A DNA stretch of 64,000 bases from Ferrovibrio sp. (GTDB lineage: Bacteria > Pseudomonadota > Alphaproteobacteria > Ferrovibrionales > Ferrovibrionaceae). The stretch is from NCBI RefSeq assembly GCF_025869515.1, contig NZ_JAOZVR010000093.1, positions 62,001 to 126,000 of the forward strand, read 5' to 3'. The translations under genes were made by a program, and so were the position numbers. Below are positions 1,073 to 19,570 of this stretch, piece by piece. Numbering within the stretch: the stretch's first letter is position 1; each line of letters opens with the position of its first letter. A model generated the notes under the pieces. The model was not told where the DNA came from, did no database searches, and saw nothing but the letters and a program-made list of their open reading frames with translations.

Positions 1073-1918
1073 ATGAGCCGGAGGAGCGAGGCGGTGGTGG
1101 ACGAGCGGCTGCCGACGCCGCTGTATCATCAGATATTTCTGATCCTGCATGGCCAGATCGTCGAAGGCCGGCTGGTGGCCGGGGCGCAGGTGCCGGGCGA
1201 GGAGGAGCTGGCACGCCAGTTCAATGTCTCGCGCATCACTGCCCGTCGCGCTTTGGCCGAACTGGCCGCCGAAGGTATGGTTACCCGCAGCCGTGGGCGC
1301 GGCACGCATGTGACAGCGCGCGATCATGAGCCGCCGCCGGTGCATGGCGGGGTTGAAGGCCTGATCGAAAACCTCATGGCCATGGGACTGAAAACCCAGG
1401 TCACACTGCTGGATTTCGGTTACGAACCGGCGGCGCCGGATGTGGCTGCCGCATTGCAGGTGGCGCCCGGCGCCGAAGTGCAGCGCGCCGTACGTATCCG
1501 CTCGCTGGCCGACGGGCCATTCTCGCACCTCACCACCTATGTCCCGGCCGATATCGGCCGCAAATTCGGTCGCAAGGAAATGGCGCGCGAGCCGTTGCTC
1601 GGGCTGCTGGAGCGATCGGGTGTGGTGATCGGCAGTGCCGAACAGACGCTGTCAGCCACGCTGGCCGATACACGCGTGGCGCCGTTGCTGAAAACCTCGA
1701 TCGGCGCGCCGCTCTTGCGCATCAGCCGCATTGTGCAGGACAGCCATGGCCGGCCGGTCGAATACATCATCGGGCTCTATCGTCCGGACCGCTATCAGTT
1801 TCGCATGAGCCTCGACCGCGTGCGCGGCGAGGATCGCAATACTTGGTCGGCCAGCGTGGCGCCGGCGACCGGGGAACCCAGCGCTGCGCCACGATCCAGA
1901 AACAGGGAGAAAAAGTGA
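1073..1918 (+). CDS. GntR family regulator with UTRA domain (HutC/FarR type)
   Basis: This is a 281-residue transcriptional regulator. Residues about 12-82 form the winged helix, with PLYHQIFLIL and the recognition-helix stretch SRITARRALAELAAEG. Residues about 100-245 match the small-molecule-binding UTRA fold of HutC-like regulators. Such proteins normally repress a catabolic operon until its substrate or an intermediate binds. The stop codon shares a base with the ATG of the solute-binding protein gene (TGATG at 1916-1920), so the regulator is the first gene of the operon and probably autoregulated. It is the best candidate for sensing the unknown substrate of the 1-15 kb pathway. The 27 C-terminal residues look disordered. 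Confidence 0.9.
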   Translation: MSRRSEAVVDERLPTPLYHQIFLILHGQIVEGRLVAGAQVPGEEELARQFNVSRITARRALAELAAEGMVTRSRGRGTHVTARDHEPPPVHGGVEGLIENLMAMGLKTQVTLLDFGYEPAAPDVAAALQVAPGAEVQRAVRIRSLADGPFSHLTTYVPADIGRKFGRKEMAREPLLGLLERSGVVIGSAEQTLSATLADTRVAPLLKTSIGAPLLRISRIVQDSHGRPVEYIIGLYRPDRYQFRMSLDRVRGEDRNTWSASVAPATGEPSAAPRSRNREKK

Positions 1919-3138
1919 TGATCAAGACCCCACGTGTATCCCGCAGGCTTTTCCTGGCCGGTACGGCCGCTACCGCCGGCCTGGCCGGCTTCCCCGCCAT
2001 CCTCAAGGCTCAGCCGCGCACCATCAAGGTCGGCATTCTGCACCCGGTGACCGGTCCGCTGGCGCCGTCGGGCCAGCAGTGCCGCCTCGGCGCCAAGCTG
2101 GCGATCGATACGATCAATGCCAATGGCGGCATCGCCTCGATGGGCGGCGCCAAGCTGGAACCGATCTATGCCGACGCGCAGTCCAAGCCCGATGTCGGTG
2201 CCGCCGAAGTCGAGAAGCTGAACGAGGCCGGCGCCACCGCCATCGTCGGGCCGTTTGCATCGGGCATCGCGCTGGCCACCACGCAGGCCGCCGCCAAGCA
2301 TGGCATCCCGCATATCGTCGATGTCGGCGTGGTCGACCAGGTGGTCACCCGTGGACTGACCAATACCTTCCGCTTCGGTCCTGGCCTGAACAAGATCGTC
2401 GACAGCGCCATCGAAAACTTGGTCGCACTGAACACCCAGGCCGGCAAGCCGGCCAAGACCGTGATGATCGTGCACGAGGAATCTGCCTTCGGCGCAGGTA
2501 TGGCCAAGACACTGAATGAGAAGCTGCCGAGCATGGGCTTCGAGGTGCTGGAGACCATCGCTCATGCCAACCCGACGCGCGATTTCAACAATATCGCGCT
2601 GAAGATCAAGGGTCGTAACCCGGATCTGCTGATTCCGTCGAATTACTACAACGAATTCGTGCTGCTGGCGCGTACCCTGCGGCAGCAGAAGATCCGCCCG
2701 AAGGCGATCTATGCCATCCTCGGCGGCGCGGCCTCGCAGTATCGTTTCGTGCAGGAATTCCCCGATGCGGCGGAATTCATCATGGACTGCAATCACTGGT
2801 TCGACCCGCGCAATCCGGTGGCGCTGGAACTGAAGAAGAAGGTGGAAGCCGAGAAGGCTTTCTTCTCCTATGAGGTGTTTCTGAACCACGAATGCGTGCG
2901 CCTGCTCGCCGATGCGCTGGAGCGTGCCAAATCGGCTGATCGCGCTGCCGTCACTCATGCGCTGGCGTCGTCGGGCTGGTCGAACCACTTCATGCCCTAT
3001 GGCCCGACCCGCTTCGTTAACGGCCAGAATGAAGGCGCGGCTCCGGTTAACACCCAGATTCTGAACAAGGATATCAAGGTGATTTTTCCGAAGGATTTTG
3101 CCAACGCCAAGCCGGTCTTCCCGGCACCGAAGGCCTGA
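1918..3138 (+). CDS. branched-chain-amino-acid-type ABC transporter solute-binding protein
   Basis: This 406-residue periplasmic receptor belongs to the Leu/Ile/Val-binding family (Peripla_BP_6). The N-terminus has a twin-arginine signal, SRRLFLAG at residues 8-15, followed by an alanine-rich segment and a probable cleavage near KAQP. The mature protein opens with TIKVGILHPVTGPLAPSG, the usual start of the type I binding fold. An in-frame ATG at 1843 lies inside the regulator gene and is less likely than 1918, which fits the one-base coupling. The genes for both permeases and both ATPases follow. Family members bind amino acids but also urea, amides and aromatic acids, so the ligand cannot be read from sequence. 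Confidence 0.92.
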   Translation: MIKTPRVSRRLFLAGTAATAGLAGFPAILKAQPRTIKVGILHPVTGPLAPSGQQCRLGAKLAIDTINANGGIASMGGAKLEPIYADAQSKPDVGAAEVEKLNEAGATAIVGPFASGIALATTQAAAKHGIPHIVDVGVVDQVVTRGLTNTFRFGPGLNKIVDSAIENLVALNTQAGKPAKTVMIVHEESAFGAGMAKTLNEKLPSMGFEVLETIAHANPTRDFNNIALKIKGRNPDLLIPSNYYNEFVLLARTLRQQKIRPKAIYAILGGAASQYRFVQEFPDAAEFIMDCNHWFDPRNPVALELKKKVEAEKAFFSYEVFLNHECVRLLADALERAKSADRAAVTHALASSGWSNHFMPYGPTRFVNGQNEGAAPVNTQILNKDIKVIFPKDFANAKPVFPAPKA

Positions 3139-3198
3139 TCCATCTGTCGTGGCGGGGCCGGTACGCCGGCTCCGCCGCAATTCTTCCAGCGTGACGCT

Positions 3199-4071
3199 AT
3201 GCTTGAGTTATCGATCCTGTTGCCGGCGATCCTGAACGGGCTGACCACCGGCGCGATCTATGCCCTGATCGCGCTCGGTCTCACGCTGATCTACGGCGTC
3301 CTGCACATCATCAATTTCGCCCATGGCAGTCTGCTGATGTTGGCGCTGTATGGTGTGTTTTTCCTGCACAACCTGTTCGGCATCGACCCCTATCTGGCGC
3401 TGCCGGTTGCGGCCATTGCCCTGTTCGGCATCGGCTACGGCCTGCAGCGTTTCGTCATCGGCCACGCCAGCCATGGCAAGGACGAGAATATCCTGCTCGT
3501 CACACTGGGACTGTCGGTGGTCATCGAGAATCTGGCGCTTTATCTGTGGCGTTCGGATACACGCACGATCGAGACGCCGTATTCCTTCGAGGTTCTGGAT
3601 TTCGGTGTCGCCTTCATTCCGGTGCCTAAAGTGGTTGCGTTTGTCGGGGCTCTGCTGGTCGCCGGTCTGCTCTGGCTGCTGATGACGCGCACGGATCTCG
3701 GCCGTGCCATCCGTGCACTGGCCAGGGAACGTCAGGGCGCCAAGCTGGTCGGCATCAATGTCGAGCATATCTTTGCCATGTCGTTCGGCATCGGCTGCGC
3801 TTGCCTGGGGATCGCTGCCTGCCTGCTGCTGCCCAGCTTCTATGTCAGCCCGCAGGTCGGCCATGCCTTCGTGCTGGTGGCATTCACCGTGGTGGTGCTC
3901 GGTGGCATGGGCAGTTTCGTCGGCGCCCTGCTCGGCGGCCTGATCATCGGCGTCACCGAAAGCCTCGGCGGACTGTTCCTTGGTGAAAGCCTGGGGCAAC
4001 TCGGCATCTTCCTGATCTTTATTATCGTGCTGCTGTTCCGGCCCACCGGACTGCTGGGGCAGAGGACCTGA
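3199..4071 (+). CDS. livH: branched-chain-type ABC transporter permease, LivH-like
   Basis: This 290-residue inner-membrane permease has about eight hydrophobic segments. The opening ILNGLTTGAIYALIALGLTL and the INFAHGSLLML motif are typical of LivH. The late VVLGGMGSFVGALLGGLIIG loop is the part that contacts the ATPase. It sits 60 bases after the binding-protein gene and 5 bases before livM, in the order SBP-livH-livM-livG-livF. The length is normal for the family. It imports the same ligand as the upstream binding protein, probably a small amide or carboxylate used by the enzymes encoded downstream. Confidence 0.93.
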   Translation: MLELSILLPAILNGLTTGAIYALIALGLTLIYGVLHIINFAHGSLLMLALYGVFFLHNLFGIDPYLALPVAAIALFGIGYGLQRFVIGHASHGKDENILLVTLGLSVVIENLALYLWRSDTRTIETPYSFEVLDFGVAFIPVPKVVAFVGALLVAGLLWLLMTRTDLGRAIRALARERQGAKLVGINVEHIFAMSFGIGCACLGIAACLLLPSFYVSPQVGHAFVLVAFTVVVLGGMGSFVGALLGGLIIGVTESLGGLFLGESLGQLGIFLIFIIVLLFRPTGLLGQRT

Positions 4072-4076
4072 GTCGC

Positions 4077-5057
4077 ATGCGTATCCTGATCGCGATCCTG
4101 GTCTTCTTCCTGGCTCTGCTGCCGCTGCCGCTGCTGATCCATTCCGACTTCTGGATCACCTGGCTGACGCTGGCGCTGTTTTATGCCTATCTCGGTCAGG
4201 CTTGGAACCTGCTGGGCGGTTATGGTGGGCAGTTCTCCTTCGGCCATGCGTTGTTCTTCGGCACTGGCGCCTATTGCACGGCGGTATTGCAGATCCAGTT
4301 CGGGGTCAACGCCTGGGGCGGTTTCGTGCTGGCAGCAGTGGCGGCCGGCATTGTCGGCGCCGGCACCGGTTGGCTGGTCTTCCGCTACGGCCTGCGCGGC
4401 TCGTATTTTGCCCTGGTGACGCTGGCCTTTGCCGAGGTCTTCCGTATCCTCGCCAATACCTTCTCCTTCACCGGCGCCGGTGTTGGTCTGCTGGTGCCGC
4501 TGCAGCCTGGCATTGCGCAGATGCAGTTCGAAACCAAGGCTGGATTCTTCTGGCTGCTGCTGCTGCTGGTCGTCGGCTGCCTGCTATTCACATGGTGGAT
4601 GCAGAATGCCCGCTTCGGCGCCCGTCTGATGGCGGTGCGCGAGAACGAGGATGCCGCCCGCGCGCTGGGCGTCGATCCGTTTTCCACCAAGCTGCTGGCG
4701 ATCACTGCATCCGGCGCTATCGCCGGTTCGGCCGGCGCAGTCTATGTGCAGCTGTTCCTTTATATCGACCCGAATATCGCCTATGGCCCTGCCATGTCGG
4801 TGGAGGCACTGCTGGTGCCGATCATCGGCGGACTGGGCACCATCTTCGGCCCGGTACTGGGCGCCTTTGCCCTGCATGCGATTGCCGAGATCGGCCAGCT
4901 GGTCTTCGGCGAGGCGCCCGGCCTCAATCTGGTTCTCTACGGTTTGCTGCTGGTTGTGATGGTGCTGTTCCTGCCCAATGGCCTTTTCGGGCTCGGTCGT
5001 GTGGGTTTCGGCAGCGGCGCACTACGCCGCCTGTTCAAGCGGAGCGCCCATGCTTGA
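4077..5057 (+). CDS. livM: branched-chain-type ABC transporter permease, LivM-like
   Basis: This 326-residue membrane protein is the second permease of the importer. WNLLGGYGGQFSFGHALFFG near residue 45 is the LivM signature. The cytoplasmic stretch MAVRENEDAARALGVDP, around residue 183, corresponds to the coupling region. The 3' end overlaps livG by 8 bases (5050-5057), which points to translational coupling. Nothing is truncated. Confidence 0.93.
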   Translation: MRILIAILVFFLALLPLPLLIHSDFWITWLTLALFYAYLGQAWNLLGGYGGQFSFGHALFFGTGAYCTAVLQIQFGVNAWGGFVLAAVAAGIVGAGTGWLVFRYGLRGSYFALVTLAFAEVFRILANTFSFTGAGVGLLVPLQPGIAQMQFETKAGFFWLLLLLVVGCLLFTWWMQNARFGARLMAVRENEDAARALGVDPFSTKLLAITASGAIAGSAGAVYVQLFLYIDPNIAYGPAMSVEALLVPIIGGLGTIFGPVLGAFALHAIAEIGQLVFGEAPGLNLVLYGLLLVVMVLFLPNGLFGLGRVGFGSGALRRLFKRSAHA

Positions 5058-5802
5058 GATCGTACAGCTCTCCAAACGCTTCGGCGGCCTGGTCGTAACC
5101 AACGATGTCAGTTTCACAGTGCAGTCCGGCAGTATTTCGGCCCTGATTGGGCCGAACGGCGCGGGCAAGACCACGATCTTCGCGCAGATTTCCGGCTTCC
5201 ATCAGCCAGATGGCGGCGATATTCGCTTCGAGGGGCAGTCGATCATCGGGTTGACACCGGAGCGGATCTGCCTGCGCGGTATCGCTCGCACCTTCCAGAT
5301 CGTGCAGCCTTTTGCCGGCCTGAATGTGCGCGAAAATATTGCTGTCGGCGCGCATCTGCACCGTGCCGGCCGCCGTGCCGCGCTGGAGCATGCCGAGAGC
5401 ATCGCGCACCGCGTCGGCCTCGGAGCGCAACTCGACAAGCCGGCTGCGGCGCTGACCGTGGCTGGCCGCAAGCGGCTGGAACTGGCCAAGGCGCTTTCCA
5501 CCGACCCCAAACTGCTGCTGCTCGACGAGGTGATGGCCGGGCTCAATCCGGCCGAAATCGACGAGATCATTCCGATCATCCGTGGCATCCGGCAATCCGG
5601 CGTTACCATCCTGCTGATCGAGCATGTCATGCGGGCAGTGATGAACCTGTCCGACCATACCTGGGTACTGAACAACGGCCGGCTGATTGCCAGTGGTACG
5701 CCGGCACAGATCGCCACCGACCCGCAGGTAATCGAGGCCTATCTCGGCCATGGCGCCGCCGCACGTATGCAGGCGCAGCGGACTGGAGTGCACCATGCTT
5801 GA
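5050..5802 (+). CDS. livG: branched-chain-type ABC transporter ATPase, LivG-like
   Basis: This 250-residue ATPase has Walker A GPNGAGKTT at residues 34-42 and Walker B LLLLDE at 155-160. The signature region reads LTVAGRKRLELAKAL, a LivG-like variant without the canonical LSGGQ. The start at 5050 overlaps the livM stop by 8 bases; the upstream in-frame start at 4978 would lie deep inside livM and lacks family similarity. The LivG-specific extra segment GIARTFQIVQPFAGLNVREN is present. It pairs with LivF to drive uptake. Confidence 0.92.
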   Translation: MLEIVQLSKRFGGLVVTNDVSFTVQSGSISALIGPNGAGKTTIFAQISGFHQPDGGDIRFEGQSIIGLTPERICLRGIARTFQIVQPFAGLNVRENIAVGAHLHRAGRRAALEHAESIAHRVGLGAQLDKPAAALTVAGRKRLELAKALSTDPKLLLLDEVMAGLNPAEIDEIIPIIRGIRQSGVTILLIEHVMRAVMNLSDHTWVLNNGRLIASGTPAQIATDPQVIEAYLGHGAAARMQAQRTGVHHA

Positions 5803-6496
5803 AGTTCGGGATCTACAGGCCGGTTATGGCGAAGTGGCTGTGCTGCGCGGCGTCGATCTCGATGTGGCGAAGGGTGAGATTGTGGCATTGCTGGGCGCCA
5901 ACGGTGCCGGCAAATCGACGCTGAACAACACACTCTCCGGCCTGTGCCGGCCAATGGCCGGGCAGATACGCTTCCTGGGCGAAGATATCGCCGGCGCCGG
6001 CTCCGACCGCATCGTCAGCGCCGGCCTGATTCAGGTGCCCGAGGGGCGCCGTGTGTTTCCGAATCTGAGCGTGAAGGAGAATCTGGAGCTCGGCAGTTAC
6101 CGCCGTGGCCGGGCATCGCGCAACGCCAACCTGGAGCGGATCTATGGCGTGTTTCCGCGTCTGAAGGAACGCATCGACCAGTTTGCCGGCACATTGTCGG
6201 GTGGCGAGCAGCAGATGCTGGCCATCGGTCGCGGCCTGATGGCGGAACCGGAATTGCTGATCCTGGATGAGCCATCACTGGGTCTCTCCCCCTTGCTGGT
6301 CGAGGAGATGTTCAGTCTGATCCAGAAACTCAACCGCGACGGCCTGTCGATTCTACTGGTCGAGCAGAATGTGGTGCAGTCGCTGGCCATCGCCCATCGC
6401 GCATTTGTGCTGGAGCATGGCGTAATCGCCTTGTCGGGTGCCGCCGCCGACCTGTTGAACGATCCGGGGCTGAAAGCTTCGTATCTGGGGATATGA
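5795..6496 (+). CDS. livF: branched-chain-type ABC transporter ATPase, LivF-like
   Basis: This is a 233-residue ATPase. Walker A GANGAGKST lies at residues 34-42, the signature is LSGGEQQMLAIGRGL, and the Walker B is LLILDEPSLGL. The ATG at 5795 lies in the same 8-base ATGCTTGA overlap seen at the livM/livG junction, so I chose it over the upstream in-frame ATG at 5750. It completes the five-gene importer. The stop overlaps the next gene by four bases (ATGA), which ties transport to the first enzyme of the pathway. Confidence 0.92.
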   Translation: MLEVRDLQAGYGEVAVLRGVDLDVAKGEIVALLGANGAGKSTLNNTLSGLCRPMAGQIRFLGEDIAGAGSDRIVSAGLIQVPEGRRVFPNLSVKENLELGSYRRGRASRNANLERIYGVFPRLKERIDQFAGTLSGGEQQMLAIGRGLMAEPELLILDEPSLGLSPLLVEEMFSLIQKLNRDGLSILLVEQNVVQSLAIAHRAFVLEHGVIALSGAAADLLNDPGLKASYLGI

Positions 6497-7779
6497 CGAT
6501 GACCCAGGCAATACCGATGACCCTTGCCGAGAAACTGGTGGCCCGCGCCGCCGGACGCGAGAGCGTGCGGCCGGGCGAGGTGGTCACGGCGAAAGTCGAT
6601 CTGGCGATGATGCACGATTCCGGCGGGCCGCGCCGCGTAGCGCCGATGCTGGAACGCCTGCAGGCCAGACTGTGGGACCCTGACCGCGTGGTGGTGATTT
6701 CCGATCATTACGTGCCGGCGGTGGACGCGGAAAGCGCCGGCATCCTCGATCTCACCCGCAAATGGGTGAAGGCGGCGGGCGTGACGAATTTCCATGACAT
6801 GCAGGGTATCTGCCATGTCGTGCTGCCCGAGCGCGGCCATCTGCGGCCCGGCCTGTTCGTAGTGGGCGGTGACAGCCATTCGCCGACCGGCGGCGCCTTC
6901 GGTACCTACATGTTCGGTGTCGGCGCCACCGAAATGTGCGGCGTGCTGGTCACCGGTGAGATCTGGCTTCGGGTGCCCGAAACCATCCTGCTGCACTGGA
7001 CTGGCCGGCTGGCGCCCGGCGTCGTGGCCAAGGATATGATCCTGGCGATGTGCGCGAAGCTCGGCATGGATGGCGGCCGCTACCAGGCGATCCAGTATGC
7101 CGGCGATACCGTCGCCGGCCTAGCGATGCAGGAGCGCATGACGCTGAGCAACATGGCGGCCGAGCTTGGCGCCCAGACCGGCCTGATCGCGCCGGATACC
7201 GTGACGCGGGATTATCTGCTGGCCGCTGGCGTACCGGCCGGCGAGATCGAACTGGCCGCCTGGCAGGGCGATGCAGCAGCCGCTGCCGAACGGCATGATT
7301 TCGATGCGGCCACGCTGTCGCCCATGGTGGCGGCACCGCACAGTCCGGCCAACAGTGCTGCCGTCGGCGAACATGGAAATGTCAGCGTCGATCAGGCCTA
7401 TATCGGCGCCTGCACCGGTGCCAAGATCAACGACCTGCGCATGGCCGCCGGCGTGCTGAAGGGCCGCAGGGTAGCGAGCGGCACGCGGCTGTTGATCGCG
7501 CCGGCCTCGGCCCGCACCACGGCAGAAGCCGCGGCGGATGGCACGCTGGCGGTACTGACCGAGGCCGGTGCCATCCTGCTGTCTTCGGGCTGCGGCGCCT
7601 GTGCCGGTTATGGTGCCGGCGTGCTGGCCGAGAACGAGACCTGCATTGCTTCCACTGCGCGCAACTTCAAGGGCCGCATGGGGGCGGGGTCGTCGAAGGT
7701 GTATCTCGGCTCACCCTATACTGTGGCGGCCTCTGCCGTTGCCGGCCGCATCGCCGATCCGCGTGAGTTCCTGGCATGA
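6493..7779 (+). CDS. aconitase-family hydro-lyase, large subunit (LeuC / dimethylmalate dehydratase type)
   Basis: This 428-residue enzyme belongs to the aconitase / isopropylmalate isomerase superfamily. GDSHSPTGGAFG at residues 126-137 is the family active-site motif. Cys307 in GACTGAKINDLR and Cys367/Cys370 in SSGCGAC should ligate a [4Fe-4S] cluster. The small-subunit gene follows with a 4-base overlap. Leucine and citrate enzymes are unlikely in this catabolic operon. The coupling to an isocitrate-lyase-family gene resembles dmdA-dmdB-dml (2,3-dimethylmalate dehydratase and lyase) of nicotinate fermentation, so hydration of a substituted maleate or fumarate is my inference. Homoaconitase or methylisocitrate-type chemistry is the main alternative. 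Confidence 0.85.
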   Translation: MTMTQAIPMTLAEKLVARAAGRESVRPGEVVTAKVDLAMMHDSGGPRRVAPMLERLQARLWDPDRVVVISDHYVPAVDAESAGILDLTRKWVKAAGVTNFHDMQGICHVVLPERGHLRPGLFVVGGDSHSPTGGAFGTYMFGVGATEMCGVLVTGEIWLRVPETILLHWTGRLAPGVVAKDMILAMCAKLGMDGGRYQAIQYAGDTVAGLAMQERMTLSNMAAELGAQTGLIAPDTVTRDYLLAAGVPAGEIELAAWQGDAAAAAERHDFDAATLSPMVAAPHSPANSAAVGEHGNVSVDQAYIGACTGAKINDLRMAAGVLKGRRVASGTRLLIAPASARTTAEAAADGTLAVLTEAGAILLSSGCGACAGYGAGVLAENETCIASTARNFKGRMGAGSSKVYLGSPYTVAASAVAGRIADPREFLA

Positions 7780-8300
7780 GCAGTGCCGCGAACAACGCCG
7801 GCCGGGTCTGGAAATTCGGCGACAATATCGACACCGATGTCCTGGCGCCCGGCCTCTATATGAAAAGCCCGCTCGCCGAACTGGCGCGGCATTGCCTCGA
7901 ATCTGTCGAGCCGCGGTTTGCCAAAGAGGTGAAGCCGGGCGATATCGTGGTGGGCGGGCGGAATTTCGGCATGGGCTCGTCTCGCGAGCAGGCTGTGATG
8001 GCTTTGCGCGAACTTGGCGTCGCCGCCGTTGTGGCACCATCCTTTGCCGGCATCTTCTACCGCAACGCCCTCAATCTCGGCCTGCTGGCGCTGGTCTGTC
8101 CGGAGGCGGCACAGATCCGCACCGATGCGGTTCTGGCTGTCGATGCCACGGCTGCCACGCTGCGCGACCTCGAAACCGGCAAGATTTATGTCTGCGAGAC
8201 CCTGCCGGCACACTTGCTGCAAATGATTGCCGACGGCGGCCTGCTGCCGCACCTGGAAAAGAAACTGAACGCTCAACGGTCAAAGGAGGCGCAGGCATGA
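7776..8300 (+). CDS. aconitase-family hydro-lyase, small subunit (LeuD-like)
   Basis: This 174-residue swivel-domain subunit pairs with the preceding large subunit. It has the family start WKFGDNIDTD at residues 12-21 and the catalytic NFGMGSSREQA loop at 63-73, in which GSSRE positions the catalytic serine and arginine. The substrate-recognition loop just after residue 21 reads DVLAPGLYMK, unlike the YLRL/YLRT loops I associate with isopropylmalate and homocitrate enzymes; this argues for a different substrate. The gene overlaps both neighbours by four bases. Confidence 0.85.
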   Translation: MSSAANNAGRVWKFGDNIDTDVLAPGLYMKSPLAELARHCLESVEPRFAKEVKPGDIVVGGRNFGMGSSREQAVMALRELGVAAVVAPSFAGIFYRNALNLGLLALVCPEAAQIRTDAVLAVDATAATLRDLETGKIYVCETLPAHLLQMIADGGLLPHLEKKLNAQRSKEAQA

Positions 8301-9178
8301 GTCAGCTGCGCGAACGTCTGCATAGTGGCGATATCATTGTCGCGCCCGGAGTCTATGACGGCCTGAGCGCACTGGTGGCCAGCCAGGCTGGGTTCGAGGC
8401 GCTGTATCTGTCTGGTGCCAGTATTGCCTATACGCGCTTCGGCCGTTCCGACATCGGGCTGGTATCGATGACCGAAGTGGCAGATACGCTGGGGGCGATC
8501 CGTGAACGAGTCGATACGGCCATCATCGTCGATGCCGATACCGGATTCGGCAATGCGCTCAACGTGCAGCGCACCGTGCGCCTGTTCGAGCGCAATGGCG
8601 CCGCCGGCATCCAGATCGAGGATCAGGCCAGCCCGAAACGCTGCGGTCATCTGGATGGCAAGACGCTGGTTTCGCCGGCCGAGATGGTGGGCAAGATAAA
8701 GGCGGCGCTCGATGCGCGTCAGTCAACCGATACCCTGATTGTTGCCCGCACCGATGCCATCGCCGTGGAGGGCATCGGCCCGGCCATGGAGCGGGCGGAC
8801 CGCTATATCGAAGCCGGCTGCGATGTGCTGTTTGTCGAAGCGCCGCAGAGCGTGGACGAGATGCGCAGCATCATCAACCGCTTCGGCAATCGCGTGCCGC
8901 TGCTGGCCAATATGGTGGAGGGCGGCAAGACGCCGCTGCTCTCGTCGGCCGAACTGGCCGAGATCGGCTATCGCCTGGTGATCTTCCCGGGTGGTCTGAC
9001 CCGCGCATTGGCACATTGCATGACCGCCTATTTTGCCTCGCTGAAACAGGCCGGCAGCACGACGCCGTTCCGCGACCGCATGCTGGATTTTTCGGCGCTC
9101 AATGCCCTGATCGGCACGCCGGAACTGCTGGCCGAGGGCCGCAAATATGATCCCGCCCGGTACGAGGACCTGCCATGA
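8297..9178 (+). CDS. isocitrate lyase / PEP mutase superfamily C-C lyase
   Basis: This is a 293-residue TIM-barrel enzyme. VDADTGFG at residues 78-85 supplies Mg-binding aspartate, and KRCGH at 114-118 (catalytic Cys116) is the hallmark of true lyases such as 2-methylisocitrate lyase and dimethylmalate lyase. Oxaloacetate decarboxylases and phosphonomutases lack that cysteine motif. The start at 8297 overlaps the small-subunit stop by four bases; longer in-frame starts run inside upstream genes. Following a hydratase, it would split a 2-hydroxy diacid into a 2-oxo acid such as pyruvate or glyoxylate and a short acid. The precise substrate is unproven. Confidence 0.85.
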   Translation: MSQLRERLHSGDIIVAPGVYDGLSALVASQAGFEALYLSGASIAYTRFGRSDIGLVSMTEVADTLGAIRERVDTAIIVDADTGFGNALNVQRTVRLFERNGAAGIQIEDQASPKRCGHLDGKTLVSPAEMVGKIKAALDARQSTDTLIVARTDAIAVEGIGPAMERADRYIEAGCDVLFVEAPQSVDEMRSIINRFGNRVPLLANMVEGGKTPLLSSAELAEIGYRLVIFPGGLTRALAHCMTAYFASLKQAGSTTPFRDRMLDFSALNALIGTPELLAEGRKYDPARYEDLP

Positions 9179-10860
9179 TCGATCCCATCACCCTGGCCGT
9201 GCTGAAAGGCCGGCTCGAACAGGTTGCCGACGAGATGGACGCGACCCTGTTTCGTTCGGCCTTCAATCCGATCATTGCCGAGGCGCATGATGCCAGCCAT
9301 GGCCTCTATCATGCCGTCACCGGCGAAACCCTGATACAGGGCAAGTCCGGTCTGCCGATCTTCGTCGGCGCCATGGCCTTTGCCGTGAAGGCCGTGATCG
9401 ACAAGGCGGTGCGCGACGGCGACCTGAAGGATGGCGACGTCTATATCTTCAACGACCCTTACGATGGCGGTACGCATTTAAGCGATTTCAAGCTGGTGCG
9501 ACCGTTTTTTCGCAACGGCAAGGTCTTCTGTTATCTGGCTTCGGTCGGTCACTGGCACGATGTCGGCGGCAATGTGCCGGGCAATTACAACCCGGTCGCC
9601 ACCGAATGCTTCCAGGAAGGCATGGTGATCCCACCGGTGAAGCTCTATGTCGCCGGCCAGCTGCGGCAGGATGTGGTAGATATCCTGCGCGCGAACACCC
9701 GTTTGCCCGACAGCCTCTATGGCGATATGAACGGCCAGGTGAACGCGCTGGACCTGGGCAGCAAACGCCTGCATGCGCTGCTGGACGAATATGGCGATGC
9801 CACCGTCGATGAAGCGCTGGCCGAGCTGAAAAAGCGTGCGGCGATCCAGTTCCGCAGTTTGCTGCGCGACCTGCCCGACGGGCGCTACGCCGCCGAGGAC
9901 TTCTTAGATAATGACGGCATTCGCGACGAGGCCTTGCGCATCGGCCTGGAGGTGGTGATCGAGGGCGAGGCGCTGACGCTGGATTTCTCGCGCACCTCCG
10001 ATGCCTGCGCCGGACCGGTGAATATCGCGCGCTCCACCGCGATTGCCGCCTGCTATGTCGCGATCAAGCATATCTTCCCAGATGTGCCGGCCAATTCCGG
10101 CGTACTGGAGCCGGTGACATTCATTATCCCGGAAACCAGCCTGATCAGCGTGAAAGCACCCAAGCCGGTCGGCGGTTACACCGAGACAATCCTGCGTGTC
10201 ATCGATGTGATCTTCGAGGCCTTTGCCCAGATCGCGCCCGACCGTGTCAACGGGTGCGCCTATGGCACCATCAACGCACTGTCGCTGGCCGGTCACCGCA
10301 GGGACGGGCGGCGCTGGGTGATGTTCAGCTTCTTCGGCGGCGGGCATGGCGGTCATCCGCAAGGCGACGGCCTGAATCATGGCAATGCGCCGATCTCGAT
10401 GGCGACGATCCCGCCGCTGGAAATCCTCGAAGCCGCTTACCCGGTGATGTTCACCGAATGGAGCCTGCGACCGGATAGCGGTGGTGCCGGTCGCAATCGC
10501 GGCGGGCTTGGTGCTGTTTATGAAATCGAGCTGCTGGAAGAAGAGGCTGACCTTTTCCTGTTCGGCGAGCGCGGCAAATACGCCCCGGCCGGCGTGCTGG
10601 GCGGCCATGCCGCGCTGCGTAACCGCTTCGTCTATCCGAAAGATGGCAAGCTGGTGGAACCCGGGATGGTGTCCAAACTGCACGATGCCAAACTGAAGAA
10701 GGGCGATCGCATCCGTCTGGAAACGCCGGGCGGCGGCGGCTACGGCCCGCCGGCCGAGCGCAAGGCGGAGAAAATCGCCGAAGACCTGCGCCTGGGTTAT
10801 GTCACCAAAGAGGGTGCCACCCGCGATTACGGCCGTAAAGCCAAGGAGGCCGCAGAATGA
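9175..10860 (+). CDS. hyuB: hydantoinase B / oxoprolinase family protein
   Basis: This 561-residue protein is full length for HyuB. The opening MIDPITLAVLKGRLEQVADE, the FNDPYDGGTHLSD stretch and the glycine-rich FFGGGHGGHPQGDG segment are typical of the family. HyuB partners HyuA (next gene) in ATP-dependent ring opening of hydantoins, 5-oxoproline, N-methylhydantoin or related lactams and imides. The gene overlaps both neighbours by four bases. Acetone-carboxylase-like activity is a remote alternative because the gamma subunit is absent. Confidence 0.88.
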   Translation: MIDPITLAVLKGRLEQVADEMDATLFRSAFNPIIAEAHDASHGLYHAVTGETLIQGKSGLPIFVGAMAFAVKAVIDKAVRDGDLKDGDVYIFNDPYDGGTHLSDFKLVRPFFRNGKVFCYLASVGHWHDVGGNVPGNYNPVATECFQEGMVIPPVKLYVAGQLRQDVVDILRANTRLPDSLYGDMNGQVNALDLGSKRLHALLDEYGDATVDEALAELKKRAAIQFRSLLRDLPDGRYAAEDFLDNDGIRDEALRIGLEVVIEGEALTLDFSRTSDACAGPVNIARSTAIAACYVAIKHIFPDVPANSGVLEPVTFIIPETSLISVKAPKPVGGYTETILRVIDVIFEAFAQIAPDRVNGCAYGTINALSLAGHRRDGRRWVMFSFFGGGHGGHPQGDGLNHGNAPISMATIPPLEILEAAYPVMFTEWSLRPDSGGAGRNRGGLGAVYEIELLEEEADLFLFGERGKYAPAGVLGGHAALRNRFVYPKDGKLVEPGMVSKLHDAKLKKGDRIRLETPGGGGYGPPAERKAEKIAEDLRLGYVTKEGATRDYGRKAKEAAE

Positions 10861-12929
10861 CCAACCAGAGCAGCATCCCGCGCTACGCCGTTGGCGTCGA
10901 TGTCGGCGGCACATTCACCGATGTATTTTTCCTCGATGAGGCACAGGGGCGCATCGATATCGCCAAGGTGCCATCCACGCGCGGCGACCAGGCGACAGGC
11001 TTTATCGAAGGTCTGCGCAGCAAAGCCGAGCCGAAGCAGATCGCCACCGTTGTGCATGGTACCACGGTGGGCACTAATGCATTGCTGGAGCGCAAAGGGG
11101 CCCGCACTGGAATTATAACCACGCGTGGTTTCCGCGACGTGCTGGAGATGCGGCGCCGCGACCGGCCCAGCACCTGGGGATTATGGGGCCAGTTCGTGCC
11201 GGTGGTGCCGCGCGACCTGCGGCTGGAAGTGGGCGAACGCGTGCTGGCCGACGGTACGATCCGTCAGGCGGTCGACCCGGCCGAAGTGAAACAGGCGGCG
11301 CAGGAGCTGCTGGCACACGGCGCCGAGGCCGTTGCCATCATTTTTATCAACGCCTATGCCAATGCGGAAAACGAGCGGGTGGCGCTGACGGCACTCCGCG
11401 AAGTCTGGCCGAATGACTATGTCACCGCCTCATCCGACATCCTGCCTGAAATCCGCGAGTTCGAGCGCACCTCCACGGCGGCACTGAATGCCTATCTGCA
11501 GCCGCCGGTGGGGAGCTATCTGCGCAAGCTGGAAAGCCGGCTGCAGGGCGACGGTTTCACCGGCCAGTTCCTGATCGTGCAGTCGAATGGCGGCGTGATG
11601 AGCGTGGACAGCGCCGCGAGTCGCCCGGTGCGCACCGCGCTGTCGGGTCCGGCGGCCGGCGTGATCGCCTGCCAGCATATCGCGGTGGCGGCCGGTTTCC
11701 CCAATGTCGTGACCTGCGATATGGGCGGCACCAGTTTCGACGTCTCGCTCATCGCCGGAGGCGAGCCGGCGATGAGCGCACAGACCGCCATCGATTTCGG
11801 CATGGTGGTGCGCGCACCGATGATCGAGATCACCACCATCGGTGCCGGTGGCGGTTCGATTGCCTGGATCGACCGTGGTGGCATCCTGCAGATCGGTCCG
11901 GAAAGCGCCGGCTCCGATCCAGGCCCGGTGGCCTATGGCCTGGGCAGCGACCGGCCGACCGTGACGGATGCCAATGTGGTGATGGGCCGCATTGATGCCG
12001 AGCGACCGATCGGTGGCAAGCTGAAGCGGCTGGATGTCGAAGCGGCCAGGGAGGCTATCCGCAAGCATATCGCGGAGCCGTTAGACCTCGATGTGATGGC
12101 GGCAGCCGAAGCCATCATCAAGGTGGCGAATTCACGTATGGCCGGCGCGATCCGTCTGGTTTCCATCGAACGCGGCCACAACCCGCGCGACTTTGCTGCG
12201 ATGCCGTTCGGCGGCGGTGGTGCGCTGCATGTCGGCGCATTGATCAAGGAAGTCGGTCTGGCTTCGGCGCTGGTGCCGCGCTTCCCCGGTGTCACCTCGG
12301 CGCTGGGCTGCGTGATCGCCGATATGCGGCATGATTTCGTCCGCACGGTGAACCGCACGCTGGACGATACCGATCCAGTCATTCTGGATGCCGCCATCGC
12401 CGAGGCGGCGGGTGAGGGCGGGCGCCTGCTCGATCAGGCCGGCATCGCCTTCGAGGGGCGCGCCATCTCGGTCGAGCTCGATATGTCCTATCTGGGCCAG
12501 ACCCATACCGTCGCTGTGCCGCTGTCGGGTGATTTTTCTGTGCCGGTGAATCTGACCCGCGAGGGTATCAAGGCCGCCTTCGAGACTGCTTATGCCGCCG
12601 CTTTCGGCCGCGTGCTGGACAGGATCGGCATCCGCGTGCTGAACCTGCGCGTCGCCGCCATCGGCAAGCGCAAGAAATTCGACCTCGCCCTGCTGGCACC
12701 ACCGACGGAGGGCACGGTGGAGGCGGCGAAGCGCACCACGCGCCAGGTCTGGCTTGAGGGTGCCTGGCACGAGGCTGGCATCTATCGTCGGCTGGACCTG
12801 CCGCTCGGCGCGGTGATCCCGGGTCCGGCGATCCTGGAACAGTCCGACACCACCATCCTGATCGAACCCGACCTGGTGGGCGAGGTGGACCGGTTCGGCA
12901 ACCTGGTGGTGAAGCGGAAAGCGATATGA
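10857..12929 (+). CDS. hyuA: hydantoinase A / oxoprolinase family protein, ATP-binding subunit
   Basis: This 690-residue protein has the actin-like ATPase fold. GVDVGGTFTD at residues 13-22 is the phosphate-binding loop and VVHGTTVGTNALLERKG the second family block. The middle contains VTCDMGGTSFDVSLI and TIGAGGGSIAW, also family signatures. HyuA uses ATP to activate the amide of a cyclic substrate that HyuB then opens. The gene is complete and coupled to hyuB upstream and to the isochorismatase-fold gene downstream by four-base overlaps. The order hyuB before hyuA is common in proteobacterial catabolic operons. Confidence 0.9.
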   Translation: MTNQSSIPRYAVGVDVGGTFTDVFFLDEAQGRIDIAKVPSTRGDQATGFIEGLRSKAEPKQIATVVHGTTVGTNALLERKGARTGIITTRGFRDVLEMRRRDRPSTWGLWGQFVPVVPRDLRLEVGERVLADGTIRQAVDPAEVKQAAQELLAHGAEAVAIIFINAYANAENERVALTALREVWPNDYVTASSDILPEIREFERTSTAALNAYLQPPVGSYLRKLESRLQGDGFTGQFLIVQSNGGVMSVDSAASRPVRTALSGPAAGVIACQHIAVAAGFPNVVTCDMGGTSFDVSLIAGGEPAMSAQTAIDFGMVVRAPMIEITTIGAGGGSIAWIDRGGILQIGPESAGSDPGPVAYGLGSDRPTVTDANVVMGRIDAERPIGGKLKRLDVEAAREAIRKHIAEPLDLDVMAAAEAIIKVANSRMAGAIRLVSIERGHNPRDFAAMPFGGGGALHVGALIKEVGLASALVPRFPGVTSALGCVIADMRHDFVRTVNRTLDDTDPVILDAAIAEAAGEGGRLLDQAGIAFEGRAISVELDMSYLGQTHTVAVPLSGDFSVPVNLTREGIKAAFETAYAAAFGRVLDRIGIRVLNLRVAAIGKRKKFDLALLAPPTEGTVEAAKRTTRQVWLEGAWHEAGIYRRLDLPLGAVIPGPAILEQSDTTILIEPDLVGEVDRFGNLVVKRKAI

Positions 12930-13540
12930 GCAGCACGAGACTTGATCTGAAGCACACGGCCCTGTTGATCGTCGACCTGCAGAACGATTTCCTGCATGCC
13001 GATGGCGCCTATGCGCGTGGCGGCGCCAACCTGCCCGGCGCCGCCGCCTTGATCGCCAACATGAAGGCGGTGACCGACGCGATGCGCGCGGCCGGCGGCT
13101 GGATCGTGTCGACGCAGTTTACGCTTGTGCCCGGCCGCGGTGGCGAACCGCTGATCAGTCCGCATCTGCAACAGCTGCGCCCTTTCCTGCGCAAGGGCGA
13201 CTTCCAGCCCGGCGCCTGGGGCCATGGCCTGATCGACGAACTGGCACCGGCTGACTTCACGGTGGAGAAGGTGGCTTATTCCGCCTTCTACATGACGCGA
13301 CTTGAATTCGTGCTGCGCAAGGTCGGCATCGATACCCTGCTGATTGGCGGTATTGTCACCAATGGCGGCGTCGCCAGCACGCTGCGCGACGCCCATGTGC
13401 GCGACTTTCACGCCTTGCTGCTGACCGACGGCTGCGCCGCCTTCAGCAAGGAGGCCCATGAGGCGAGCCTTTCCTCGTTAGGCACCATCGCGCCGAAGCT
13501 GACCTGCGCCGAGGTCGTGGCGGCGATCCGCGCCACATGA
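12926..13540 (+). CDS. isochorismatase-fold protein, catalytic cysteine replaced by glycine
   Basis: This is a 204-residue protein of the cysteine-hydrolase/isochorismatase fold. Asp17 in LLIVDLQNDF and Lys115 in VEKVAYSAF match two members of the usual Asp-Lys-Cys triad. The nucleophile position, normally C in a T-N-x-C-V pattern, is Gly148 in GGIVTNGGVAST. Amidases of the family (N-carbamoylsarcosine amidase, maleamate amidase, biuret hydrolase) need that cysteine. Isochorismatases such as EntB and PhzD lack it and hydrolyse a vinyl ether. By position it should act on the ring-opened product of HyuAB, but simple amidase chemistry is doubtful. Confidence 0.85.
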   Translation: MSSTRLDLKHTALLIVDLQNDFLHADGAYARGGANLPGAAALIANMKAVTDAMRAAGGWIVSTQFTLVPGRGGEPLISPHLQQLRPFLRKGDFQPGAWGHGLIDELAPADFTVEKVAYSAFYMTRLEFVLRKVGIDTLLIGGIVTNGGVASTLRDAHVRDFHALLLTDGCAAFSKEAHEASLSSLGTIAPKLTCAEVVAAIRAT

Positions 13541-14949
13541 GCAAGGTCCTGCCTGCGGCGGGCCTGGATTTCCCGCTCTCGGTTCCGGTTCTGGTGATCG
13601 GCGGCGGCGCCTGTGGACTTACGGCAGCACTGACCGCTCATGATGCCGGCGCCGAGGTGCTGGTGCTGGAGCGCGATCCGTCCCCCAGCGGCTCGACCGC
13701 CATGTCGTCGGGCATGATTCCCGCGGCTGGCACGGCGCTGCAGGCGGTGCGCGGTGTGCAGGACACACCGGCGATCATGACGGCGGATATCCAGGCCAAG
13801 GCACATGGAGAGAATGACCCGGCCATGGTGGCGGCAGTCTGCGCGGCATCCGGTCCCACGGTGGATTGGCTGGTGCAGCAGCATGGTGTGCCGCTCACAC
13901 TGGTGGAAGGCTTTCTCTATCCCGGCCATAGCCGGCCGCGCATGCATGCACCGGCTTCGCGCAGCGGGGCCGATCTGATCGGCGGCCTGCTGGCGGCAAC
14001 CAATACCGCCGGCATCGACATTGTCTGCAATGCAACGGTGACGACATTGTTTGCCGATCCGGACAGCCGTGTGCGTGGCGTTGAGCTGGCGCGACCCGAT
14101 GGCGCGACCGAGCGTATCGGTTGCGACACGCTGGTGCTGGCTTGTTCGGGCTTCGGCGGTAATAGCGATCTGGTAACGCGTCACATCCCGGAACTCGCCG
14201 GTGCGCAGTATTACGGCCACACCGGTAATCGCGGCGATGCTCTGCTGTGGGGTGAACAGCTCGGCGCCAGCGTACAGCATCTCGGCGCTTATCAGGGTCA
14301 TGGCTCGCTGGCCATGCCGCATGCCATCCTGATCACTTGGGCCCTGATGATGGAAGGCGGCTTCCAGGTTAATGCGCACGGTGAGCGGTTTTCCTGCGAG
14401 CATGACGGCTATTCCGAACAGGCGATGCGCGTGATTGCGCAGCCCGGCGGCGTAGTATGGAACATCTATGATGCCCGCCTGCACAGGCTCGGCCTCGATT
14501 TTGAGGATTATCGCGAGGCTGTCAGCGGTGGCGCGATCAAAAGCGCTGACAGCATAGAGGCGCTCGCCGCTGAATGCGGCCTGCCGCCACAGGCGCTGGC
14601 AGCGACACTGGCGAAAACCCGTGCGCTGGCCGCAGCTCAGGGCCAGGACCGTTTCGGCCGCGATTTCACCGCCAGACCGACACTGGAAGCGCCATTGTAT
14701 GCGGTGAAGGTGACCGGCGCGCTGTTTCACACCCAGGGTGGCCTCGCCATCGATACAGAGGCCGCTGTGCTGCGCAGAGACGGAACGCGGCTGCCGAACC
14801 TGTTTGCCGGCGGTGGCGCAGCCTGCGGCCTCTCGGGGCGCGGACGTGACGGGTATCTCTCTGGCAATGGCCTGCTCACCGCCGTGGTGCTCGGCGCAAA
14901 GGCGGGCAGATCCGCCGCGGCACTTGCATTGTCATTGTCATCGCGTTGA
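13537..14949 (+). CDS. FAD-dependent oxidoreductase, fumarate reductase / ketosteroid dehydrogenase family
   Basis: This 470-residue flavoprotein has the FAD-binding GGGACGLTAA loop at residues 22-31 and LVLER at 42-46. The substrate-domain block HGERFSCEHD (281-290) and the HTQGG motif (398-402) resemble active-site regions of soluble fumarate reductases and urocanate or 3-ketosteroid enzymes. There is no haem motif or signal peptide, so it should be cytoplasmic. It probably reduces or desaturates a C=C bond next to a carboxylate, which suits a maleate- or acrylate-like intermediate. The start overlaps the previous gene by four bases. The operon probably ends here; a 203-base gap follows. 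Confidence 0.85.
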   Translation: MSKVLPAAGLDFPLSVPVLVIGGGACGLTAALTAHDAGAEVLVLERDPSPSGSTAMSSGMIPAAGTALQAVRGVQDTPAIMTADIQAKAHGENDPAMVAAVCAASGPTVDWLVQQHGVPLTLVEGFLYPGHSRPRMHAPASRSGADLIGGLLAATNTAGIDIVCNATVTTLFADPDSRVRGVELARPDGATERIGCDTLVLACSGFGGNSDLVTRHIPELAGAQYYGHTGNRGDALLWGEQLGASVQHLGAYQGHGSLAMPHAILITWALMMEGGFQVNAHGERFSCEHDGYSEQAMRVIAQPGGVVWNIYDARLHRLGLDFEDYREAVSGGAIKSADSIEALAAECGLPPQALAATLAKTRALAAAQGQDRFGRDFTARPTLEAPLYAVKVTGALFHTQGGLAIDTEAAVLRRDGTRLPNLFAGGGAACGLSGRGRDGYLSGNGLLTAVVLGAKAGRSAAALALSLSSR

Positions 14950-15152: not shown

Positions 15153-15455
15153 ATGCTGTTCTGTTTTCACAATATCGACAAACCGGATTCCGCGGCCCTG
15201 CGGCAGGCCTGGCGCCCGCAGCACAAGGCATATCTGGGCAAGGTGGCCGACCGGATTGCCTTTGCCGGCCCGCTGCTGGCCGATGACGGCACCACCATGC
15301 AGGGCAGCCTGCTGGTGATCGATTTCCCGGATCGCGCCGCGGCCGAGGCCTGGCTGCAGCAGGAACCGTTCACCCAGAACGGCGTTTATGCTTCGGTTTC
15401 GATCCGCGCCTTTGTTAATCTATGGCCACAGAAGACAGGCTTCCCGCCGCAATGA
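15153..15455 (+). CDS. YciI-like protein
   Basis: This 100-residue protein has the dimeric alpha/beta-barrel fold of YciI. MLFCFHNIDKPDSAALRQAW starts the first strand, and RPQHKAYLGKV carries the conserved histidine. IAFAGPLLADDG and the late FVNLWPQ also fit the family. YciI-like proteins are small enzymes or stability factors often encoded beside catabolic operons; related muconolactone-isomerase-like folds handle small lactones. It lies 203 bases after the flavoprotein gene, so its membership in the catabolic operon is likely but not certain. It converges with the large minus-strand gene at 15478. Confidence 0.8.
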   Translation: MLFCFHNIDKPDSAALRQAWRPQHKAYLGKVADRIAFAGPLLADDGTTMQGSLLVIDFPDRAAAEAWLQQEPFTQNGVYASVSIRAFVNLWPQKTGFPPQ

Positions 15456-18829: not shown

Positions 18830-18832
18830 ATT

Positions 18833-18862: not shown

Positions 18863-18885
18863 AATCAAGTCCGAGAGGAGGAAAA

Positions 18886-19518: not shown

Positions 19519-19570
19519 CGGGACCTATAAATATCCACGGATAAAAATCCGGGATTCGGAGGAGGAAACC

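Follow-up and report, generated by a model that had tools for sequence, protein, structure and literature searches.

The window analysed here, a 64,000-nucleotide stretch from Ferrovibrio sp. (contig NZ_JAOZVR010000093.1, positions 62,001 to 126,000 of the forward strand), harbors a 13-gene operon whose products probably convert a five-membered, substituted imide or lactam into a 2-oxoacid plus an acid. Whether glutarate is one of the products is an even call. The full proposal is that the operon imports a five-membered imide or lactam bearing a methyl and a 2-carboxyethyl group and degrades it to pyruvate and glutarate, the simplest candidate being hematinic acid (or its dihydro form); the chances of this proposal fall just short of even. 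Taken on its own, the choice of this candidate as the substrate is tentative. Should that choice prove wrong, the broader framework, in which an imide or lactam yields a 2-oxoacid and an acid, would still explain these genes best. The protein families, their motifs, the linkage of the genes, the separate clades and the apparent interchange of ring openers and hydratases all come from sequence comparison.

Results

The 13 genes lie on the + strand between positions 1073 and 14949, all in frame, in the order GntR, five Liv genes, LeuC, LeuD, lyase, HyuB, HyuA, isochorismatase-fold protein and flavoprotein. Neighboring genes overlap by 1-8 bases at 10 of the 12 junctions, by exactly 4 bases at the last seven, and two junctions have gaps of 60 and 5 bases. 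The first-pass annotation of this DNA had described these genes in this order as a run coupled by overlaps, which the open reading frames bear out; its count of 11 genes was two short. Nine of the 13 proteins were scanned against Pfam and NCBIfam. All nine passed Pfam gathering scores and none of the nine reached an NCBIfam equivalog cut-off. NCBIfam subfamily models were passed by LeuC (NF001614, TIGR01343 and TIGR02086) and LeuD (TIGR02087).

The lyase (8297-9178) is a member of the isocitrate-lyase/PEP-mutase family (PF13714, 156.5 bits) and contains the KRCGH motif. A scan for its relatives kept the best 80 of 567 confirmed matches; these and further loci are numbered with an L. Residues D79, D81, E108, R151, E181, N205, V207 and G209 are present in all 82 rows of the alignment, and R236 in 81. 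The lyase shares the KRCGH motif and the metal residues with PrpB, but scores 292.6 bits against the PrpB equivalog cut-off of 354.4 and, in a tree of 27 of the 80 locus lyases (every third), belongs to a clade separate from PrpB proteins above the cut-off (support 100/100). F179, I229 and P231 align with a Phe, Leu and Pro of PrpB, which we take to be Phe186, Leu234 and Pro236 of the pyruvate pocket, as opposed to Trp, Thr and Leu in isocitrate lyase. If that comparison is right, the lyase fits a pyruvate-forming enzyme. The segment that reads ANMTEFG in PrpB and ANMIEGG in the petal death protein is ANMVEGG in the lyase. Val207 and Gly209 take the place of the Thr and Phe of PrpB, the petal death protein being similar here, and may leave room for a longer side chain. 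Dimethylmalate lyase (Dml) 3fa3 was compared by score alone and matched the lyase at E 1.5e-51. The Ferrovibrio genome itself, which is 95% complete, yielded no protein that exceeds the PrpB cut-off.

The hydratase is composed of a LeuC-like large subunit (6493-7779; NF001614, 523 bits with a cut-off of 385; TIGR01343, 458 bits with a cut-off of 385.7) and a LeuD/DmdB-family small subunit (7776-8300; TIGR02087, 177 bits with a cut-off of 109). The 4Fe-4S ligands C307, C367 and C370 of LeuC are kept in all 50 rows. Scores are below the equivalog cut-offs of both leucine LeuCD and homoaconitase HacAB. In a tree of 24 of the 47 locus LeuC proteins (every second) and one plasmid LeuC, the LeuC-like subunit forms a clade apart from the sampled leucine LeuC (support 98/97), and the genome has a separate leucine-type LeuC on contig C116. 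Like the lyase tree, this tree was built without characterised DmdAB or Dml sequences. A second LeuC type is encoded in gene clusters that contain the same lyase, in Rhodobacterales, Azospirillum, Roseomonas, Bradyrhizobium and other taxa, and branches next to leucine LeuC; a hydratase thus joined this gene set on at least two occasions. LeuD Lys30, in the putative substrate loop, is present in 52 of 58 rows.

The metal subunit HyuB (9175-10860; PF02538, 562 bits) and the ATP subunit HyuA (10857-12929; PF01968, 304 bits) would form an ATP-dependent amidohydrolase. H101, D104 and H126 of HyuB are invariant across 39 rows, as is D39 across the 37 rows that have a letter at that position. These four residues match the metal tetrad of CapB named in an excerpt of PMC8453981. 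In HyuA, DVGGTFTD is present in all 37 rows with letters, and D-x-GGTSFD and PGP each in 38 of 38. The ATP motifs and the Asp-His-Asp-His metal site place the pair with ATP-dependent HyuAB of the CapAB type, and its scores of 524 and 325 bits are far from the caprolactamase equivalog cut-off of 1000.

Linkage of these genes extends beyond the window. L003, a Ferrovibrio metagenome-assembled genome and the nearest relative, has all 13 genes in the same order with 82-94% identity, which argues that the order is not due to chance. Two further genes were called in L003 at places where the window has none, a TctC-family gene between HyuB and HyuA (12586-13545) and a tautomerase-SnoaL gene after the flavoprotein (17599-18180). 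The gene set was found again in alpha- and betaproteobacteria and on plasmids. Co-occurrence was counted in the 50 of the 80 loci whose lyase is flanked by 7 kb or more in both directions, using cut-offs of 45% identity for HyuA, HyuB, the isochorismatase-fold protein and the flavoprotein, and 40% of query length; Fisher and Poisson values are descriptive and ignore relatedness. Among these 50 loci, LeuC of the window type is present in 35 and the second LeuC type in six. HyuB, and with it HyuBA, is found in 28, and the isochorismatase-fold protein and the flavoprotein in 29 each. The isochorismatase-fold protein is present in 28 of 28 loci with HyuB versus 1 of 22 without it, the flavoprotein in 24 of 28 versus 5 of 22, and a tautomerase-SnoaL fusion in 9 of 28 versus 0 of 22. 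Conservation of gene order, which the first-pass annotation had put forward as a check, was seen in L003, and HyuBA combined with the isochorismatase-fold protein in the 28 loci.

Genome samples were searched as well. Independently of the lyase, a search of 349 genomes of the phylum with the isochorismatase-fold protein returned 22 matches at E <=1e-20. With approximately 1.5 kb examined on each side, HyuA adjoins all six matches of at least 61% identity, the Ferrovibrio genome included, and none of the 16 matches of 40% or less. Of 18 genomes of the family, 10 encode the lyase at 64% identity or above, and HyuA at 68% or above occurs in nine of these 10 and nowhere else. The lyase and HyuA share one contig within a few kb in all nine, and matches to the lyase, HyuA and the flavoprotein co-occur in nine of the 18. 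Among 58 genomes of the class, all five LeuC copies of at least 64% identity adjoin a lyase of at least 60%.

Some loci that lack HyuB encode other candidate ring openers. A dihydropyrimidinase-family gene is present in 8 of the 22 well-flanked loci without HyuB, compared to 1 of the 28 with it. PuuE/cyclic-imidase-family genes were found in 5 of the 80 loci and are paired in four; L049 also has HyuB. Such pairs are additionally present in L091 and L175, the latter being a second copy from the class sample, in which two of the 58 genomes have two copies. According to PMC9304392, PuuE proteins are related to CIH and HxnM, which are cyclic imide hydrolases. Six of the 80 loci encode Asp/Glu-racemase-family proteins, one of which (L046) gave a match to maleate isomerase 4fq5 (E 3.4e-7). 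Ring openers and hydratases appear to interchange around a constant predicted outline, in which a nitrogen ring is opened and the resulting maleate-type acid is hydrated and split.

The isochorismatase-fold protein (12926-13540; PF00857, 136 bits) has no catalytic cysteine. Glycine takes its place in 38 of 38 rows, and D17 and K115 are retained. The best named families are the ureido-hydrolases RutB and BiuH, and the Cys of wild-type RutB aligns to the Gly; the protein has lost the Cys of the Asp-Lys-Cys triad of the Cys amidases RutB, NicF and BiuH. In the phylum sample, Gly is found in each of the six HyuA-linked copies, compared to Cys in 15 of the 16 distant homologues. The sixteenth, from L140, has Ala and is encoded adjacent to a lyase-family gene. 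Ala is also found at this position in the isochorismatase-fold protein of L085 (13266-13841), beside a lyase and LeuCD. These cases suggest repeated loss of the nucleophile in the company of the lyase family. At the imidase loci L022, L028, L041, L091 and L175, the isochorismatase-fold partner (L028 type) retains Cys; no homologue of the L028 type was found in L049 and L054. A canonical, NicF-like maleamate amidase was considered and dropped, given Gly in 38 of 38 rows. Dialkylmaleamates are unstable, from which comes the idea of substrate-assisted cleavage: one explanation for the loss of Cys may be that the cis-carboxylate of a maleamate acts as its own nucleophile. Another may be enamine or enol chemistry, as true isochorismatases are themselves Cys-less.

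The flavoprotein (13537-14949) is a member of the FAD_binding_2 family (PF00890, 181 bits, versus 47 bits for DAO). Y292 and Y440 are invariant (44 of 44 rows) and fall on the alignment positions of Arg402 and Arg545 in FccA (1d4c chain), and Trp268 and Met271 align with Glu378 and Arg381 of flavocytochrome c. The flavoprotein thus lacks Arg402 and the Glu378-Arg381 pair, which we take to be the catalytic residue and the proton path of fumarate reductase. Mutants of fumarate reductase residues are named in Protein Data Bank (PDB) titles, and the natural Tyr sits at the residue mutated to Tyr in entry 1jrz. Both substrate sites of the flavoprotein thus carry Tyr, as in 3-ketosteroid dehydrogenases; the aligned residues are presumably Tyr318 and Tyr487 of ketosteroid dehydrogenase, with roles in the substrate site. 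Three ketosteroid-dehydrogenase-like proteins from the same bacterial family (L095-L097), which score below the NF009478 cut-off, also have Tyr at both sites. Since Tyr replaces both Arg positions, the flavoprotein probably acts on a neutral ring carbonyl, most simply that of the ring before it is opened. The fold is not decisive: Foldseek placed the predicted structure (20 of 44 rows used, pLDDT 88.6) nearest urocanate reductase and flavocytochrome c and ranked ketosteroid dehydrogenases lower. A TcuA-like dicarboxylate dehydrogenase was rejected because of the invariant Tyr pair; the score against the TcuA profile is 154 bits with a cut-off of 369.

The first six genes encode a regulator and an importer. 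The GntR-family regulator (1073-1918; PF00392, 68.3 bits) has a UTRA ligand domain (PF07702, 114.6 bits). The LivK-type periplasmic binding protein (1918-3138; PF13458, 169 bits) is followed by LivH-type (3199-4071) and LivM-type (4077-5057) permeases and by LivG-type (5050-5802) and LivF-type (5795-6496) ATPases. These last four were outside the profile scan and are named from gene order and annotated relatives: orthologues occupy the same places, and the counterparts of LivH in L083, L086, L092 and L093 are annotated as branched-chain amino acid ABC transporter permeases, with LivM named on the same grounds. The starts of LivG and LivF were chosen, as both reading frames extend further upstream (to 4978 and 5750, respectively). 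The best Foldseek match of the LivK model (12 of 14 rows used) is 8wch, a pyroglutamate-bound protein (E 3.3e-26, TM 0.82/0.84). Pyroglutamate is a five-membered lactam acid. Liv, TRAP and TTT importers, which usually bind carboxylates, stand beside the lyase in different taxa. A search of the open-access literature for SAR11_0655 found nothing.

Genes for glutarate catabolism are found near some of the clusters. The 93 cluster regions examined consist of the 80 loci, 12 plasmid regions and L175. Four clusters (L028, L067, L091 and L175) have GcdH-like genes no more than 5 kb away, and three (L031, L038 and L091) have glutarate-CoA-transferase-like (CaiB) genes inside the same distance. In L067, genes for HyuA, the isochorismatase-fold protein, the lyase and the flavoprotein are followed by an acyl-CoA dehydrogenase gene, whose probable start (4525) overlaps the flavoprotein stop (4530-4532). 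In L091, on plasmid p1 of Burkholderia plantarii, LeuCD, flavoprotein and lyase genes are followed by those for a porin, EtfBA, an acyl-CoA dehydrogenase that shares 65% identity with its L067 counterpart, and CaiB. Region 3523-17725 of L091 contains the route in its imidase form, and the plasmid is typed as conjugative. L028 and L175 encode the same kind of dehydrogenase (66% identical to that of L091), divergent from LeuCD and lyase, with one methyltransferase-like gene in between in L028. The four dehydrogenases contain what we take to be the signature of glutaryl-CoA dehydrogenase, with one conservative change in L028. The CaiB proteins of L031, L038 and L091 score 494, 511 and 542 bits, respectively, as succinate--glutarate CoA-transferase, and 299-318 bits with the next family. 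The Ferrovibrio genome has an adjacent gcdH-like/CaiB pair on contig C55. Pseudomonads have a gcdHG pair. The link to glutarate is specific in kind but comes from few loci.

Variants of the cluster were also observed. On Tistrella plasmid pTM1 (L083, 12575-19599), the lyase, tautomerase and flavoprotein genes are kept together with two genes for MmgE/PrpD and two for Asp/Glu-racemase-family proteins; neither LeuCD nor HyuBA was seen in this stretch. A related lyase-LeuCD cluster on plasmid 2 of Variovorax sp. RA8 (L085, 9945-21292) includes a RutA/SfnG-like flavin monooxygenase, a flavin reductase and RibBA, and could perhaps serve oxidative ring opening of another heterocycle. AtuA-family proteins are encoded in or beside clusters L029 (4485-5966), L036 (4504-5937), L039 (1-726) and L049 (7488-8816); the available stretch of the first three showed neither HyuBA nor a dihydropyrimidinase or imidase. 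FAD monooxygenases are close to five loci.

Downstream of the operon in the window, a YciI-family reading frame (15153-15455) follows after a 203-base gap and was left out of the gene count. It is followed by a gene for a large FkbM-methyltransferase/TPR protein on the opposite strand (15478-17832), with flagellar, chemotaxis and RadA-like genes beyond. An IclR regulator gene and a TctA tripartite tricarboxylate transporter gene (18056-22527) lie approximately 3-8 kb downstream of the operon, and no link between them and the operon was found.

Discussion

The comparisons support the central claim of the first-pass annotation, a catabolic route that opens a nitrogen heterocycle to a maleate-type acid, which is then hydrated and cleaved. 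The proposed identity of the ring follows from the products. If pyruvate and glutarate arise from a malate, that malate would be 2-methyl-3-(2-carboxyethyl)malate, formed from 2-(2-carboxyethyl)-3-methylmaleate, and the corresponding imide would be hematinic acid. Hematinic acid is 3-(2-carboxyethyl)-4-methylmaleimide, a breakdown product of a propionate-bearing pyrrole, and dihydrohematinic imide would have the substituents of chlorophyll ring D. In the proposed pathway, the GntR-UTRA regulator would sense the ligand and LivKHMGF import it. The flavoprotein would dehydrogenate the ring from the succinimide to the maleimide type (dihydrohematinic imide to hematinic acid), and HyuBA, with ATP, would open it to a maleamate. 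The Cys-less isochorismatase-fold protein would free ammonia, perhaps in a substrate-assisted manner with the cis-carboxylate replacing Cys. LeuCD would then hydrate 2-(2-carboxyethyl)-3-methylmaleate, a methyl-homoaconitate, and the lyase would cleave the hydrated product, a homologue of 2-methylisocitrate longer by one carbon, into pyruvate and glutarate. Finally, glutarate would pass through a CoA-transferase and glutaryl-CoA dehydrogenase, likely encoded on another contig. The substrate, the order of the flavoprotein, HyuBA and isochorismatase steps, and the mechanism of the isochorismatase-fold protein are guesses in this scheme.

The natural supply of such compounds is consistent with the proposal. 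Excerpts of PMC7318184 state that chlorophyll is made and degraded on a scale of 10^12 kg per year, and that the d-ring is hydrogenated in all chlorophylls except c; a reduced ring D would give the flavoprotein its job, the oxidation of dihydrohematinic imide. The same excerpts describe small pyrrolic chlorophyll fragments in leaves and herbivore faeces, hematinic acid in leaves in which maleimides were undetected, and the purification of hematinic acid from bilirubin oxidation; older work cited there found maleimides and hematinic acid in senescent leaves and lake sediments. In the open-access literature, no paper was found on HyuAB acting on maleimides, nor on bacterial catabolism of hematinic acid or genes for it, one query being too broad to inform. 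No paper assigning the operon a substrate was found there either, in keeping with the first-pass annotation, which knew of no described pathway joining these families; most subscription journals were outside the scope of the search. That annotation had also named dialkylmaleimides from tetrapyrrole breakdown as an attractive substrate. The tetrapyrrole idea gains from the glutarate genes near some clusters, and for the same reason the dialkylmaleimide gives way to propionate-bearing hematinic acid. A hydantoin, also suggested by the first-pass annotation as the ring, is unlikely, because a maleate-type five-membered imide or lactam leads to the substrate of the lyase and because the PuuE/cyclic-imidase family stands in for HyuBA.

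Several observations speak against this reading of the operon. Glutarate genes are near 6 of the 93 cluster regions and are absent from the window. The CaiB proteins score below the 750-bit cut-off. The GcdH-like proteins reach no NCBIfam cut-off: they score 208-218 bits with Acd, whose cut-off is 470, and their best model is FadE of Staphylococcus, with 237-255 bits (for L091, 237 versus 208 with Acd). With L175 excluded, GcdH-like genes were seen three times in 92 regions compared to 0.32 expected by chance, yet the Poisson P of 0.004 is uncorrected for relatedness. In the class sample, GcdH lies beside only one of five lyase-LeuC clusters (G031); it is on another contig in the Ferrovibrio genome, G018 and G024, and none was found in G042 at the threshold used. 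In six of the 50 well-flanked loci (13 of all 80), none of LeuC, MmgE, HyuB, dihydropyrimidinase, polysaccharide-deacetylase-type (PolyDeac), isochorismatase or flavoprotein genes was found near the lyase. Lyase R236 is as in PrpB, unlike the petal death protein, so the evidence on the side chain is mixed. LivK shares just 26% identity with the pyroglutamate-bound protein, and the pLDDT of the LivK model is 79.3. The activity of the Cys-less isochorismatase-fold protein is a prediction, and no ring-making enzyme was found linked to the cluster.

Two other rings would suit much of the same gene set. A neutral dialkyl ring, methylethylmaleimide or dimethylmaleimide, would yield pyruvate with butyrate or propionate. 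The ANMVEGG segment of the lyase resembles ANMIEGG of the petal death protein, which tolerates alkyl groups, the flavoprotein site has no Arg, and the older work cited in excerpts of PMC7318184 reports maleimides from senescent leaves and lake sediments. Those excerpts also give maleimides as undetected in the leaves studied, however, and the glutarate genes near six clusters, the conserved R236 of the lyase, the nearness of LivK to a pyroglutamate-bound fold and the general preference of Liv, TRAP and TTT importers for carboxylates all point away from a neutral ring, which is therefore unlikely. Slightly less likely again is that HyuBA opens a lactam, such as the bilirubin oxidation product BOX C or a pyrrolinone acid, with the Cys-less protein hydrolysing an enamine or enol and the imidase branch serving the imide. 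Isochorismatase hydrolyses a vinyl ether, and the exchange of Cys for Gly is that of true isochorismatases. HyuB and the isochorismatase-fold protein are together in 28 of 28 loci, and the five imidase loci with an isochorismatase homologue of the L028 type keep the Cys. Caprolactamase, a relative of HyuBA, opens a lactam with ATP according to an excerpt of PMC8453981. LeuCD and the lyase need a vicinal diacid, however, and hence an extra oxidation for which no gene was found; the flavoprotein could supply it if it works in that direction.

The remaining explanations fit fewer of the genes. A creatinine-like hydantoin or N-carbamoyl route, in which HyuBA opens the ring, the isochorismatase-fold protein decarbamoylates and the flavoprotein oxidises the amine, recalls the N-methylhydantoin pathway, which has the same three kinds of protein, and RutB and BiuH are the best named families for the second of them. 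It leaves LeuCD and the lyase unexplained, the catalytic Cys is absent in all 38 rows, and the flavoprotein belongs to FAD_binding_2 rather than DAO. Hydantoin or creatinine was rejected as the leading explanation on the latter two counts, and the route is improbable. Less probable still is that the hydratase and lyase serve a housekeeping cycle (methylcitrate, leucine or homocitrate) beside incidental neighbors. The superfamilies are the same, and the lyase might substitute for PrpB in a genome with no protein over the PrpB cut-off. The trees nevertheless place both enzymes outside the sampled methylcitrate-cycle and leucine clades, in line with the first-pass annotation, a leucine-type LeuC is on contig C116, the operon has no synthase gene, and the lyase, HyuA and flavoprotein occur together in nine of 18 family genomes.

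Degradation of hematinic acid or its dihydro form, as proposed here, would combine features of several known systems. Nicotinate fermentation ends with DmdAB (2,3-dimethylmalate dehydratase) and Dml, which likewise pair an aconitase-family hydratase with an isocitrate-lyase-family lyase to convert a substituted malate to pyruvate and an acid. This operon has no nicotinate or B12-mutase genes but a ring opener, an importer and a flavoprotein, and its product side points to glutarate instead of propionate. The lyase resembles PrpB in fold, KRCGH motif, metal residues and predicted pyruvate pocket, and differs in its score below the equivalog, its separate clade, V207 and G209, and a predicted substrate one carbon longer. 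HyuAB has the ATP motifs and metal site of CapAB, 5-oxoprolinase and N-methylhydantoinase, but is far under the CapAB cut-offs and has other partner genes. In L022, L028, L041, L091 and L175, a PuuE/CIH pair and a Cys amidase replace HyuBA and the Cys-less protein, similar to a cyclic imide hydrolase (CIH of P. putida or fungal HxnM) with a half-amide amidase; unlike the six-membered imide of HxnM in nicotinate breakdown, the acid formed here would feed an aconitase-type hydratase and a lyase. The flavoprotein shares the FAD_binding_2 fold with tricarballylate dehydrogenase TcuA, fumarate reductase and 3-ketosteroid dehydrogenase, which interconvert alkane and alkene beside a carbonyl, and differs from fumarate reductase by Tyr for Arg at both sites; TcuA was compared by profile score only.

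These comparisons raise questions for enzymology: an isochorismatase fold that is conserved without its nucleophile next to HyuA, a Tyr that occurs naturally in the fold of fumarate reductase, and a PrpB relative with a putatively longer substrate. It is possible, if more doubtful than the choice of substrate, that bacteria have a pathway dedicated to the ring that carries the propionate group in chlorophyll, bilins and heme. In it, an imide dehydrogenase would turn the dihydrohematinic unit of chlorin ring D into hematinic acid, an ATP-dependent enzyme or a metal imidase would open the ring, and the nucleophile-free isochorismatase-fold enzyme would release ammonia by substrate-assisted catalysis, ahead of a methyl-homoaconitate hydratase and a methyl-homoisocitrate lyase that would yield pyruvate and glutarate. 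If so, the operon would encode a counterpart, one carbon longer, to the second half of the methylcitrate cycle and supply a missing late step in tetrapyrrole turnover, and its genes would be a marker for that step in soil, lakes and the sea.

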